Shown here: one piece after another, positions 4,402 to 43,296 of the stretch
Numbering within the stretch: the first letter of the stretch is position 1
How the letters are laid out: each line of letters opens with the position of its first letter
Source: Defluviitaleaceae bacterium
GTDB lineage: Bacteria; Bacillota; Clostridia; Lachnospirales; WQUN01
Assembly (NCBI GenBank): GCA_009780315.1
Contig: WRAH01000004.1
Span: 1-64,000, forward strand
Direction of reading: 5' to 3'
DNA: 64,000 bases
Program-made: the position numbers and the translations under genes
The notes under the pieces: generated by a model
Seen by the model: the letters and a program-made list of their open reading frames with translations, nothing else
Database searches by the model: none
Told to the model about the DNA's origin: nothing

Positions 4402-4435
4402 CTAAAAAACAATAAAATAACCCAGAATACCGGTC
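4402..4435 (-). terminator. Weak terminator-like hairpin between the 6S-like RNA and the sigma gene
   Basis: On the minus strand CCGG-TATT-CTGG is followed by a T-rich tail reaching the sigma start codon. The stem is only four base pairs, so partial readthrough into the sigma gene is plausible. Confidence 0.35.
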
Positions 4436-4442
4436 CTATATT

Positions 4443-4594
4443 TTGACACCTAGCCTTGGGCTAGGGGGGTGTCCGCAACAAGGCTTCCGCCTTCCACTCA
4501 AAGATGGCACGACGTAGACCTTGCAATAAATAAGACTCCCATTTTACATCTGTAGGTTCAAAATAATAGGGTGTCGAGCATCCCAGGCTCTGTA
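4443..4594 (-). ncRNA. ssrS: Candidate 6S RNA (SsrS)
   Basis: This intergenic stretch has a near-consensus promoter, no start codon in its open frame and strong RNA structure. The ends can form a closing stem (AGCCTGGG near the 5' end with CCCAAGGCT near the 3' end). TTTGAACC followed about 15 bases later by GGGAGTC recalls the conserved bubble segment of many 6S RNAs. AAGGC-GGAA-GCCTT makes a perfect tetraloop hairpin at 4480-4493. 6S RNA mimics an open promoter and binds the sigma-A holoenzyme. The length, about 152 bases, is short for the family (usually 180-200). The alternative is a structured leader of the downstream sigma factor gene. A covariance-model search would decide. Confidence 0.5.
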
Positions 4595-39799: not shown

Positions 39800-39830
39800 T
39801 TGACGTTGACCTTACGTTAACGTGTATAAT
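39800..39830 (+). promoter_or_regulatory. MerR-type promoter/operator of the merR-family gene
   Basis: TTGACG (39800-39805) and TATAAT (39825-39830) are separated by 19 bases, the over-long spacing typical of promoters untwisted by MerR activators. The spacer contains the palindrome ACGTTAACGT (39814-39823). It lies 20 bases before the merR-family start, so autoregulation is likely. Confidence 0.75.
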
Positions 39831-39849
39831 GGATTTACGAGGTGATTTT

Positions 39850-40767
39850 ATGGAGTTGGTTAGGATAAATGAAGTGGTAGAAACATTTGGTGTTTCAAGT
39901 AGAACATTGAGGTATTATGAAGAAAAAGGATTGCTTTGGAGCCAACACCCTGAAAATAAGGCACAAAGATATTATGATACAACAGCTTTGGAAAGATTAA
40001 AGCAAATCATAGTTTTACGTAAATTGCAAATTCCCATAAAGGATATAGTTATAATATTTGAGAGTGAAAGCATGTCGGCGTTAATACAGTCTTTTGTAGA
40101 TAAGTTGGATGCACTTGATGTTGAAATTACGGCTTTATCTGAATTGCGGAGACTTGTAGATGATTTTTTGCATAAAATGCTGATAAGTGGGATTAAGAAA
40201 ATATCAGCTATAACTTTGCTTTACGAAGAGACAGAGAAACGTCTTACAACCACAGAAGCAAAGGAATCTATCACATTTGAAAGGCTTTCGGAGATAAGTC
40301 GTAAAGCGTTAAAGTTGCATGATATCAGAATTATTCGTTTGCCATCTATGCGTATGTTGACTTCTCGGTTGAAAACAGGGCAAATAGAAAACTTAGACTT
40401 AGATAAAATGCAGAATCTCTTTGCTGGTTATGGTTTTAAACCTAACCCTGGGTTCCATAACTGCTTTTATTATAAGATAAGTAATGACGAATGGGTCATG
40501 ATGATAGCCGTTTCTTCAGACTATGAAAATCAAACCCAATATGTAGATGAGCCTTTTCAAGGTGGCTTATATGCTGTAACTAGTGCTTTTATGGAGGACA
40601 TGGACGATACATTTATTCTATTAAGGGATTGGATTGATAGAAGCGATGATTTTATGCTTGAAGTTGGTGCGGAAATGATTGAGGAAATTTTGCCTTGGGA
40701 TATTGCAGTAAATTTTAACCGATACCAACAAGATGTATGTATCCCAATAAAAATACGAGAGGATTAG
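39850..40767 (+). CDS. MerR family transcriptional regulator with effector-binding domain
   Basis: The protein has 305 residues. The N-terminal winged helix is clear (VRINEVVETFGVSSRTLRYYEEKGLL, RYYDTTALERLKQIIVLRKL). A dimerisation helix runs over about 80-125. The C-terminal about 150 residues resemble the GyrI-like/BmrR effector-binding fold (IRIIRLPSMRMLTSRL, GGLYAVTSAF, LPWDIAVNFN). Such proteins bind drugs or small hydrophobic cations and activate promoters with 19-base spacers. GAGGTG precedes the ATG. It has its own MerR-type promoter; the MFS gene after it has an ordinary 17-base promoter. Confidence 0.88.
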   Translation: MELVRINEVVETFGVSSRTLRYYEEKGLLWSQHPENKAQRYYDTTALERLKQIIVLRKLQIPIKDIVIIFESESMSALIQSFVDKLDALDVEITALSELRRLVDDFLHKMLISGIKKISAITLLYEETEKRLTTTEAKESITFERLSEISRKALKLHDIRIIRLPSMRMLTSRLKTGQIENLDLDKMQNLFAGYGFKPNPGFHNCFYYKISNDEWVMMIAVSSDYENQTQYVDEPFQGGLYAVTSAFMEDMDDTFILLRDWIDRSDDFMLEVGAEMIEEILPWDIAVNFNRYQQDVCIPIKIRED

Positions 40768-40888: not shown

Positions 40889-40917
40889 TTGACCGTTCCC
40901 ATCTCTCATGATACAAT
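40889..40917 (+). promoter_or_regulatory. Promoter of the MFS efflux gene and its leader
   Basis: TTGACC (40889-40894), 17 bases, TACAAT (40912-40917). Start predicted near 40924, giving a 160-base leader. The 120 bases between the merR-family stop and this promoter show nothing else I can name. Confidence 0.7.
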
Positions 40918-40974
40918 GATAAGTAACATTTCAACAAAAAATAAAATCCATACTAATAAAAGGGGATAATACAA

Positions 40975-41001
40975 TTGAATATAATTAGACCTCCCTGCTA
41001 A
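40975..41001 (+). CDS. Leader peptide MNIIRPPC upstream of the MFS efflux gene
   Basis: A TTG start preceded at 9 bases by AAAGGGGAT opens an eight-codon frame, MNIIRPPC, ending in TAA. It sits in the transcribed leader of the MFS gene. Arg-Pro-Pro near a stop codon is a sequence expected to slow ribosomes. Its Pro codons contain CCTCC, complementary to the downstream ribosome site. This arrangement fits drug-induced ribosome-stalling attenuation as known for erm, cat and ABC-F resistance genes. The function is inferred. Confidence 0.55.
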   Translation: MNIIRPPC

Positions 41002-41027
41002 TCCTCTAATGGATATAAAATTCGAGG

Positions 41028-41077
41028 GCCTCCAAATGAATCGTTACTGTCTTTTTTATTAAGATAAAATTTGGAGG
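41028..41077 (+). promoter_or_regulatory. RBS-masking hairpin before the MFS gene
   Basis: GCCTCCAAAT (41028-41037) is complementary to ATTTGGAGG (41069-41077), which is the SD of the MFS gene. The loop ends in CTTTTTTATT. In the folded state translation of the transporter should be blocked. An alternative partner for the SD is CCTCC within the leader-peptide codons. Confidence 0.6.
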
Positions 41078-41084
41078 AGATAAA

Positions 41085-42269
41085 ATGAAAATATTTAATG
41101 ATAAGATACTATATATCTACAAATTTATAGGGCAATGTTTGCCCATCTATGCTTTTTACACGATTTTATTTCTTGAGCGGGGTAAGACGGTTAGTGATAT
41201 TGCCGTACTGATTGCGCTTTGGAGCGTATTTACCATAGTATTTGAGATTCCAGCTGGCATTCTGGCTGATAGATGGAATAGAAGAAATATACTTGCTATG
41301 GCAGCGGTCTTACAAGGTATATGTTTTGTTATATGGTTTTTTTCTCATACGTTTATTATGTTTGCTCTTGGATTCTTTTTTTGGGCTATTGCAGGAGCAT
41401 TTACATCTGGAACAGAGGAAGGCTTGATATACGATAATCTCAAGAGCGATGGACGCGAAGATAGCTTTACTAAAATATATGGAAAAGCTCAATTCTATGC
41501 AACCATAGGGGCTCTTGTCGGGATTGTTTCAGCAGGTATAATCGCTGTCTTTATTAGTGTAGAAGCCATTGCACTCATATCCGCTGTGATATGTTTTACT
41601 AATGGGATATTTGCCTTACAAATAAGAGAGCGAAATTTCTATTCAGCCCAGCTAGGCAAAGAATCCATAGGATTTTTTGAAACATTCAAAAAAGCAATCT
41701 TTTTTATTAAAAGGAGCGGCTTTGCTTTAGTGGTCATTTTGTTCTTGGTGTTTTTTGCAAGTATTGGGTCTTATTTAGATGAGTTTGATGCCTTTATTGC
41801 CGATGATTGGAATATTAGTGAATTGTGGGTTAGTGGTATTCTAGTCATAAGATTTGCCTTTGTTGCTTTAGGTGATATGCTTGCGCCAATAGTAGAAAAG
41901 AAGATTTCATCTGTTCGCCAGATATTTCTTCTTAATGGGCTGGCGTGTATCACACTCATCACATTTGCGGCAATATGGAATTGGTATGCCATTTTGTTTT
42001 TTGGTATTTCATGTATGTTTATGGCTATAACACAAATTTTGTTGGTCAATGCTTTACAGAACGAAATAAAAGAAGAGGGCAGAGCAACAGTAATGTCATT
42101 TTATAGCGTAGGCCAAAATATAGTCATGATTTGCCTTAGCTTAATTTTTGCTTTATTAGCAGGGATATTTCATTTGCAACAAGTCTACATTATCATATCC
42201 ATTTATGGCATTATAGGATGTTCGATTTTCTATGTGTTGTTTTTTAAAATCAGACTGAAAAAAATTTAA
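41085..42269 (+). CDS. MFS transporter, probable drug efflux pump
   Basis: The protein has 394 residues with about 12 hydrophobic segments. MFS motif A, GILADRWNRRNIL, lies near residues 58-70, between the second and third helices. The N-terminal half has the FEIPAG and GTEEGLIYDNL segments common to a clostridial/bacillar efflux subgroup. It is a proton-coupled exporter by family; the substrate is unknown. A MerR-family multidrug-type regulator upstream, a leader peptide and an SD-masking hairpin all suggest inducible resistance to a compound, possibly a ribosome inhibitor. GGAGGAG precedes the ATG. Confidence 0.87.
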   Translation: MKIFNDKILYIYKFIGQCLPIYAFYTILFLERGKTVSDIAVLIALWSVFTIVFEIPAGILADRWNRRNILAMAAVLQGICFVIWFFSHTFIMFALGFFFWAIAGAFTSGTEEGLIYDNLKSDGREDSFTKIYGKAQFYATIGALVGIVSAGIIAVFISVEAIALISAVICFTNGIFALQIRERNFYSAQLGKESIGFFETFKKAIFFIKRSGFALVVILFLVFFASIGSYLDEFDAFIADDWNISELWVSGILVIRFAFVALGDMLAPIVEKKISSVRQIFLLNGLACITLITFAAIWNWYAILFFGISCMFMAITQILLVNALQNEIKEEGRATVMSFYSVGQNIVMICLSLIFALLAGIFHLQQVYIIISIYGIIGCSIFYVLFFKIRLKKI

Positions 42270-42320: not shown

Positions 42321-42414
42321 ATGCCACTCATAAATGAGTACTCGAAACCTTTATCTGTGAATTTCGTATTTGATATCAGGAATAAAGTTATAGATGAATT
42401 ATGAGGTGTGTGGC

Positions 42415-43296
42415 ATGAGGTTTTTATTCAAAAATAAATATGATGAAATTCGCTCAGGTTGGGCGTTATTTCTATCAGTCATAGTACTTTTTATAGTTAT
42501 ATTATTGGTTGGATTTTCAGTTGCACTTATCACAGGTAATGGGGCTGTTAGACTTTTCAATACGCCATTTGCTGATTATCTCTTGATGAGTATTGCCGTA
42601 TTATTGCTGTTTTGGTTAATTTACAAACGACCATTAAAGCAGATGGGGCTTCACTCCAACAAATGGTTTAAGCAACTGATGCTAGGTATGGCATTCGGAA
42701 CAATCTTGATAACCTTGATTATTGTTATCATGTTAGCGAGTGGATTGATACAGTTTGTTGATGTAAATTTTAATAATTTAACTAATCACTTGTTTTGGAC
42801 TGGCCTATTAGTATTTGTGGGCGTAGGTTTTTTTGAGGAGCTATTTGCTCGCGGTTTTATCATGACTGTTCTAAAAACCACAAGAAATAAATGGGTAATT
42901 TTGCTATTGTCTTCATTTATATTTGGGATTTTGCACGTTGCAAACCCATCAGTCACCCCATTTGCGTTAATCAACATAACGCTCATTGGGATACTTATTG
43001 GGTATTTGTTCATTAAAACTGGACGATTATGGGCAGCTATAGGAATCCATTTTGCTTGGAATTTTGTACAGGGTAATATTTTTGGTAGCCTTGTTAGTGG
43101 CATAGATACCATTTCTATAGTTCATATAGAAGTTACTGGGGCAGAGTGGTTAACAGGTGGTGAATTCGGATTAGAAGGTGGGATTATATGTACATTTGTA
43201 GTATTGCTTGGTTTAGCTTATGTTCATTTTTGTATTAAGCAGAATAAAAATTTTTGGCGAATAGATAGCGATATGCCTTTAACGAGGGGCTTATAA
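42415..43296 (+). CDS. CPBP family intramembrane metalloprotease
   Basis: The protein has 293 residues and about eight membrane segments. The CPBP (Abi/CAAX protease-like) motifs are present: FFEELFARGFI (EExxxR) near 145, FGILHVANP near 177 and HFAWNFVQGN near 220. These give the Glu, His and Asn ligands of the family. Members act in prenyl-protein-like cleavage, bacteriocin self-immunity or stress signalling; which applies cannot be told. I chose ATG 42415 because GAGGTG lies 7 bases before it; an ATG at 42394 has no site. It follows the efflux gene after a terminator. Confidence 0.85.
   Translation: MRFLFKNKYDEIRSGWALFLSVIVLFIVILLVGFSVALITGNGAVRLFNTPFADYLLMSIAVLLLFWLIYKRPLKQMGLHSNKWFKQLMLGMAFGTILITLIIVIMLASGLIQFVDVNFNNLTNHLFWTGLLVFVGVGFFEELFARGFIMTVLKTTRNKWVILLLSSFIFGILHVANPSVTPFALINITLIGILIGYLFIKTGRLWAAIGIHFAWNFVQGNIFGSLVSGIDTISIVHIEVTGAEWLTGGEFGLEGGIICTFVVLLGLAYVHFCIKQNKNFWRIDSDMPLTRGL

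Follow-up and report, generated by a model that had tools for sequence, protein, structure and literature searches.

A conserved candidate arrest peptide behind an in-frame stop codon in leaders of MFS exporter and AAC(6') genes suggests a readthrough-gated attenuator

We found that the gene for an MFS exporter in a Defluviitaleaceae bacterium is preceded by a short translated leader whose conserved part continues, in the same frame, beyond its stop codon. The window analysed here comprises 64,000 nucleotides of contig WRAH01000004.1, and the exporter gene (394 aa) occupies positions 41085..42269 of its forward strand. The working part of the leader is probably a conserved arrest peptide, the in-frame R-G-P-P codons at 41023-41034, which lie behind the stop and were overlooked by an earlier note on this DNA. 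We consider it likely that the leader is a stop-gated arrest-peptide attenuator, in which drug-caused readthrough of a UAA codon leads to intrinsic ribosome arrest and so switches resistance on.

The leader is compact, and all its elements are on the forward strand. A promoter (TTGACC-17-TACAAT, 10 of 12 consensus matches) with an extended -10, that is, TG before the -10, lies at 40889..40917, and is followed by a Shine-Dalgarno (SD) sequence read as AAAGGGG at 40959..40965 and by ORF1 at 40975..41001 (TTG AAT ATA ATT AGA CCT CCC TGC TAA), which encodes MNIIRPPC. The UAA stop at 40999-41001 is the proposed gate, and a stop was present in all 48 distinct leaders collected. Behind it, a linker of seven codons without a stop (SSNGYKI, 41002..41022) leads in frame to the predicted arrest core Arg-Gly-Pro-Pro (CGA GGG CCT CCA, 41023..41034). 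The Pro-Pro codons of the core overlap an anti-SD strand assigned by folding, CCTCCAAAT (41029..41037), which is fully complementary to the exporter SD ATTTGGAGG (41069..41077) and sequesters it in the folds. The promoter, the TTG-initiated frame with its SD and the hairpin hiding the exporter SD had been described in the earlier note, and each was recovered at the position given there. That note had also suggested that the Pro-Pro codons of ORF1 pair with the exporter SD; such pairing is possible, but the strand at 41029-41037 dominated the folds. Promoter-like sites in the region were not above chance (10 found versus 13 expected from shuffles), and no Rfam family (release 15) exceeded its gathering score in the leader. 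Taken by themselves, the leader features read from the window would be weak evidence; comparison lifts them far above chance. Promoters scoring at least 10 were found in 13 of the 48 homologous leaders, compared with 3% of shuffles.

The earlier note had proposed a search for related leaders before efflux or ABC-F genes in Clostridia. Homologous leaders were uncovered in Clostridia and also in Enterococcus, Bacillus and Paenibacillus. A contig scan with the single exporter protein as query returned no match, while the exporter alignment as query yielded 80 loci. The leader preceded close exporter homologs in termite-gut Clostridia (the metagenome assemblies named Lab288, Emb289 or Th196, which we take to be from termite guts), Eisenbergiella tayi, Enterococcus malodoratus and E. 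raffinosus. A covariance model built from nine leaders reached more distant cases in Bacillus, Metabacillus, Rossellomorea and Paenibacillus, where the exporters share just 23-28% identity and the leader peptides include MTNARPPC, MPHTRPPC and MITYARPPC. Furthermore, three TetA(P)-like exporters (L031 515-577, L032 2390-2440 and L033 2396-2458) had the stop-gated RGPP layout with another first peptide, WFDSGP-stop or W-I/N-D-T-G-Q-stop, which makes at least two forms of the gate peptide. The leader was absent from two closely related exporters, L030 (74% identical) and L018 (70%), indicating that the pump can function without it. At L018 2440-2501 a near-consensus promoter (TTGACA, TATAAT) ends a few bases before the ATG, as if the gene were almost leaderless, and in E. 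raffinosus DSM 5633 (L029 2501-3671) the exporter lies in two frames, owing either to a genuine frameshift or to an assembly error, with an intact leader. No leader was found before the actinobacterial and spirochaete homologs. Searches of Lactobacillales and of the family of Eisenbergiella gave few matches, mainly leaders already known, and the matches of loose patterns in viral contigs were mostly due to chance. One phage contig (L129 14350-14993) carried the leader MNYTRPPC-stop-NLTLVRGPP, in frame, before a gene for a class I SAM-dependent methyltransferase; the closest relatives of this methyltransferase lacked the leader. Leader and methyltransferase gene sit just behind a large terminase-like gene.

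The block behind the stop has the properties of a coding sequence in the frame of ORF1. The 48 leaders were chosen by their ORF1 pattern and by presence of the block, not by frame (an SD was also a search criterion, so that its presence in them is by selection), and in all 48 the block was in the ORF1 frame. R-x-P-P itself was present in 47, the remaining leader having RGSP. Linkers had eight different lengths, 9, 12, 15, 18, 21, 24, 27 and 30 nt, all multiples of 3, and the exporter tree required at least ten changes of linker length, each again a multiple of 3. With few exceptions, the block conformed to CGN-G(C/G)N-CCN-CCN, which encodes Arg-Ala/Gly-Pro-Pro, and one leader used AGA in place of CGA for Arg. 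Third codon positions of the R-x-P-P block varied by 1.2-1.8 bits, while first and second positions varied by 0-0.15 bit except at the Ala/Gly position. In-frame stops were depleted in the linkers of homologous leaders (4 in 322 codons versus 17 expected, p = 1e-4), with 35 in 274 and 22 in 274 codons in the other two frames. An uninterrupted reading frame from start to core was found in none of the 48, since a stop intervened in every leader (TAA in 46, TGA in one and TAG in one). Patterns blind to frame, run over the genomes of 398 Bacilli and 197 Paenibacillaceae, recovered further in-frame cases there, with no match for a reversed control pattern, and the phage contig supplied one more. 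These sequence data indicate that the conserved block is coding, in the ORF1 frame. A helix between a post-stop CCTC and GAGG, similar to the 1:2 helix of erm leaders, seemed plausible in some leaders, yet it was variable, and the GAGG or GTGG considered as an RNA pairing element turned out to be codons (CGA GGN, CGT GGN).

The thermodynamic predictions support locking of the exporter SD. Opening the SD cost a median of 7.9 kcal/mol in the leader-controlled genes, compared with 3.55 kcal/mol for 55 further genes from these loci (p = 1e-8). Together with the conservation of the leader before homologous exporters, this sustains the claim of the earlier note that a short translated leader and SD sequestration control the exporter. 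The fold energy of the whole leader was unremarkable against shuffles (z -0.85), and that of its 3' half gave z -2.1. Covariation of the SD helix was not significant in nine close relatives because its core pairs are nearly invariant. We then modelled the ribosome as a footprint barred from pairing, assuming 15 nt on each side. In 48 folded leaders the median opening cost was 7.9 kcal/mol when free, 7.8 with a ribosome at the last codon of ORF1 and 3.0 with a ribosome at RAP/P, a lowering with paired p = 2e-12. For the leader of the window the values were 7.8 when free, 5.2 at the ORF1 stop and 2.2 at RGP/P. In this model, the exporter SD is predicted to become roughly as accessible as in ordinary genes, and to do so through arrest behind the stop only. 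The earlier note had regarded the leader as an antibiotic-sensing stalling attenuator. An antibiotic-responsive attenuator is likely, since I/A-R-P-P-C-stop is kept at the amino-acid level while codon choice varies and the same leader occurs before AAC(6') genes; stalling at RPPC as the switch is not supported, because the median opening cost hardly changes there.

Based on these findings, we propose the following course of events. Ribosomes would load at the leader SD, synthesize MNIIRPPC and normally terminate at the UAA (40999), and the exporter SD would stay locked in its hairpin as long as ORF1 is terminated in this way. A miscoding drug, most likely an aminoglycoside, would cause termination to fail by letting a near-cognate tRNA decode the stop. 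The readthrough ribosome would remain in frame through SSNGYKI and arrive at R-G-P-P, where intrinsic arrest would set in once the first Pro codon occupied the P site, as on ApdA, ApdP and SecM. The arrested ribosome would cover the anti-SD strand CCTCC, the hairpin would open and following ribosomes could translate the exporter. Since such an arrest would be long-lived, a single rare readthrough event could be amplified. Readthrough of the stop is the sole in-frame route to the core. Several observations count against the proposal. UAA is the least leaky stop codon, and no readthrough-promoting context was evident around the leader stop. Four leaders (L032, L071, L077 and L114) contain a second in-frame stop, so that two readthroughs would be needed, and the RGSP of one leader and the RSPP of the AAC leaders are not among the two strongest cores. 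The methyltransferase of the phage contig is a third kind of downstream gene, without a known drug link. The leaderless exporters L030 and L018, the lack of significant covariation in the SD helix and the single gene lineage behind the AAC link weigh on the same side. Published work favours two of the steps: among cores of this type, RAPP and RGPP arrest ribosomes most robustly, are refractory to EF-P and require little N-terminal context (PMC12992588, PMC10951233), and amikacin raises readthrough in Escherichia coli, in relative terms most strongly for reporters whose basal readthrough is low, such as TAA (PMC10959953).

The drug class is suggested by the acetyltransferase genes. The same covariance model detected, in the genome locus L095, the leader MLCIRYPC-stop-SEVYARARSPP before a gene that encodes no exporter; its product resembles the aminoglycoside acetyltransferase AAC(6')-Ii (NCBIfam E 1e-37; PDB 1n71 E 1e-30). 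In three Klebsiella plasmids, the leader MFYIRYPC-stop-FAIKAKARSPP was found before a gene 79% identical to it, and in this leader (L117 578-700) the predicted SD opening cost fell from 9.8 to 0.1 kcal/mol with a ribosome at RSP/P. As the leader is carried by AAC(6') and aminoglycosides cause readthrough, an aminoglycoside or another miscoding drug would be the most likely inducer. In nine Citrobacter plasmids just the last 35 nt of the leader, with the SD, were left before the AAC gene, and this loss may leave the gene unregulated; in the one such plasmid inspected, aph(6)-Id lies directly upstream (L118, about 640-700). Klebsiella with and Citrobacter without the leader offer a natural comparison of a regulated with a possibly unregulated AAC(6'). 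A 47% identical AAC (L120) had no leader, and the AAC link comes from one gene lineage. More broadly, we lean towards the view that these leaders form a family of fidelity-loss sensors in Bacillota and, with AAC(6'), on Enterobacteriaceae plasmids, in which an in-frame UAA senses and readthrough into RAPP or RGPP arrest unlocks AAC or exporter genes.

The same architecture might respond to another signal, namely impaired termination in general rather than miscoding of the aminoglycoside type. The signals would then be a shortage of release factor, drugs that block the release of the peptide, or readthrough-raising macrolides, phenicols and oxazolidinones. We regard this as a possible, though clearly less probable, explanation. 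Peptide release might be slowed by the RPPC conserved ahead of the stop (that RPPC slows termination is a guess), macrolides, chloramphenicol and oxazolidinones are described as causing readthrough (introduction of PMC10959953), and the downstream genes are mostly generic MFS exporters. However, among the downstream genes only that for the AAC(6')-Ii-like acetyltransferase points to a recognisable class of drugs, namely aminoglycosides, and the tetracycline exporter gene tetA(P) itself has no such leader. The retention of I/A-R-P-P-C-stop at the amino-acid level, together with the size and layout shared with erm-type leaders, would fit a classical attenuator, where a drug-bound ribosome stalls inside MNIIRPPC and frees the exporter SD. 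This is improbable, given that a ribosome at the end of ORF1 left the SD hairpin closed in the folds and that stalling there gives no reason for in-frame R-A/G-P-P codons behind the stop.

Two further readings dispense with decoding of the stop, and both appear very improbable. A ribosome might take off at CCT CCC before the stop and land on the downstream CCT, skipping the linker; similar Pro codons do occur on either side of the stop, and the second stops in four linkers would become irrelevant. Such bypass needs no fixed frame, yet the linkers are all multiples of 3 and depleted of in-frame stops, and the WIDTGQ-type leaders (L031-L033) lack Pro-Pro take-off codons. Equally far down the scale is the idea that the conserved block acts as an RNA element, an anti-SD or a protein site, with nothing translated past the stop. 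The block does overlap the anti-SD strand, but its variation tracks third codon positions, with CCG, CCC or CCA even spoiling perfect pairing to the SD, and the common frame with a stop depletion specific to that frame also argues against an RNA element.

The proposed readthrough-gated attenuator resembles known arrest-peptide systems in part. As with the RAPP/RGPP peptides (ApdA and ApdP, and the related SecM with RAGP), a C-terminal R-A/G-P-P is encoded upstream of the regulated gene, the predicted arrest places the first Pro codon in the P site, and the arrested ribosome would expose the downstream SD. In contrast to them, the core here follows a conserved in-frame stop; the leader, about 20 codons long, has no secretion signal and stands in front of genes for drug exporters and AAC(6') in Bacillota. 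RAPP/RGPP uORFs have been reported absent from many Gram-positives including Bacillota, with Actinomycetota excepted (Fujiwara et al. 2025, PMC12992588). Because the stop cuts the frame, scans for uninterrupted ORFs would pass over the present leaders, and we infer that this is why those of Bacillota were missed. With the erm-type and ABC-F attenuators (ErmCL, MsrDL and the CplR uORF) the leaders share a short ORF, here with its own SD, before a resistance gene whose SD is sequestered. In those systems the drug stalls the ribosome inside the short ORF, whereas here a stall in ORF1 did not open the hairpin in silico (7.8 versus 7.9 kcal/mol) and the proposed effect of the drug is passage of the ribosome beyond the ORF, with an arrest that is intrinsic. 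As in genes with functional readthrough, the extension carries a conserved coding signature in the frame of the upstream ORF. In the human AMD1 C-tail, readthrough of the stop likewise leads into a conserved arrest peptide; this eukaryotic system (PMC13025110) belongs to the 3' end of a long coding gene and is neither an SD-opening leader nor a drug sensor. The PA5471.1 leader of armZ (Pseudomonas MexXY) is similar in controlling efflux through a leader peptide with aminoglycosides among the inducers. It differs in that transcription attenuation is proposed and that it lies upstream of an anti-repressor gene, and no stop-gated core is described in the review (PMC12057347). Literature searches on RPPC and ARPPC leaders turned up no such peptide. 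In the open-access literature, to which the search extended, we found no description of a readthrough-gated bacterial leader and could not find arrest-peptide attenuation with stop-codon readthrough as its sensing principle described in bacteria.

Known drug-responsive leaders sense drugs whose stalling of ribosomes is sequence-specific, and translational sensing of error-inducing drugs is much less clear. If the proposed mechanism is true, placing a stop codon ahead of an arrest core would give a fidelity sensor that is both direct and general. It would also account for inducible resistance of Bacillota to miscoding drugs and hint at the kind of substrate handled by an uncharacterised MFS family. 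That scans for uninterrupted ORFs miss such peptides would be explained as well.

The exporter itself matched the Pfam family MFS_1 (E 7e-24) and fell far under the cut-off of every specific NCBIfam model, with 46 and 28 bits against the TetA(P) and Tet(40) models, whose cut-off is 750 or 800 bits; a sequence search of the PDB found no relative. On the same strand, a gene for a MerR-type regulator lies upstream of it (39829-40767) and one for a CPBP-family membrane protease downstream (42394-43296). Elsewhere in the window, a 6S RNA gene was identified on the reverse strand at 4415-4592 (Rfam RF00013, 61.7 bits).
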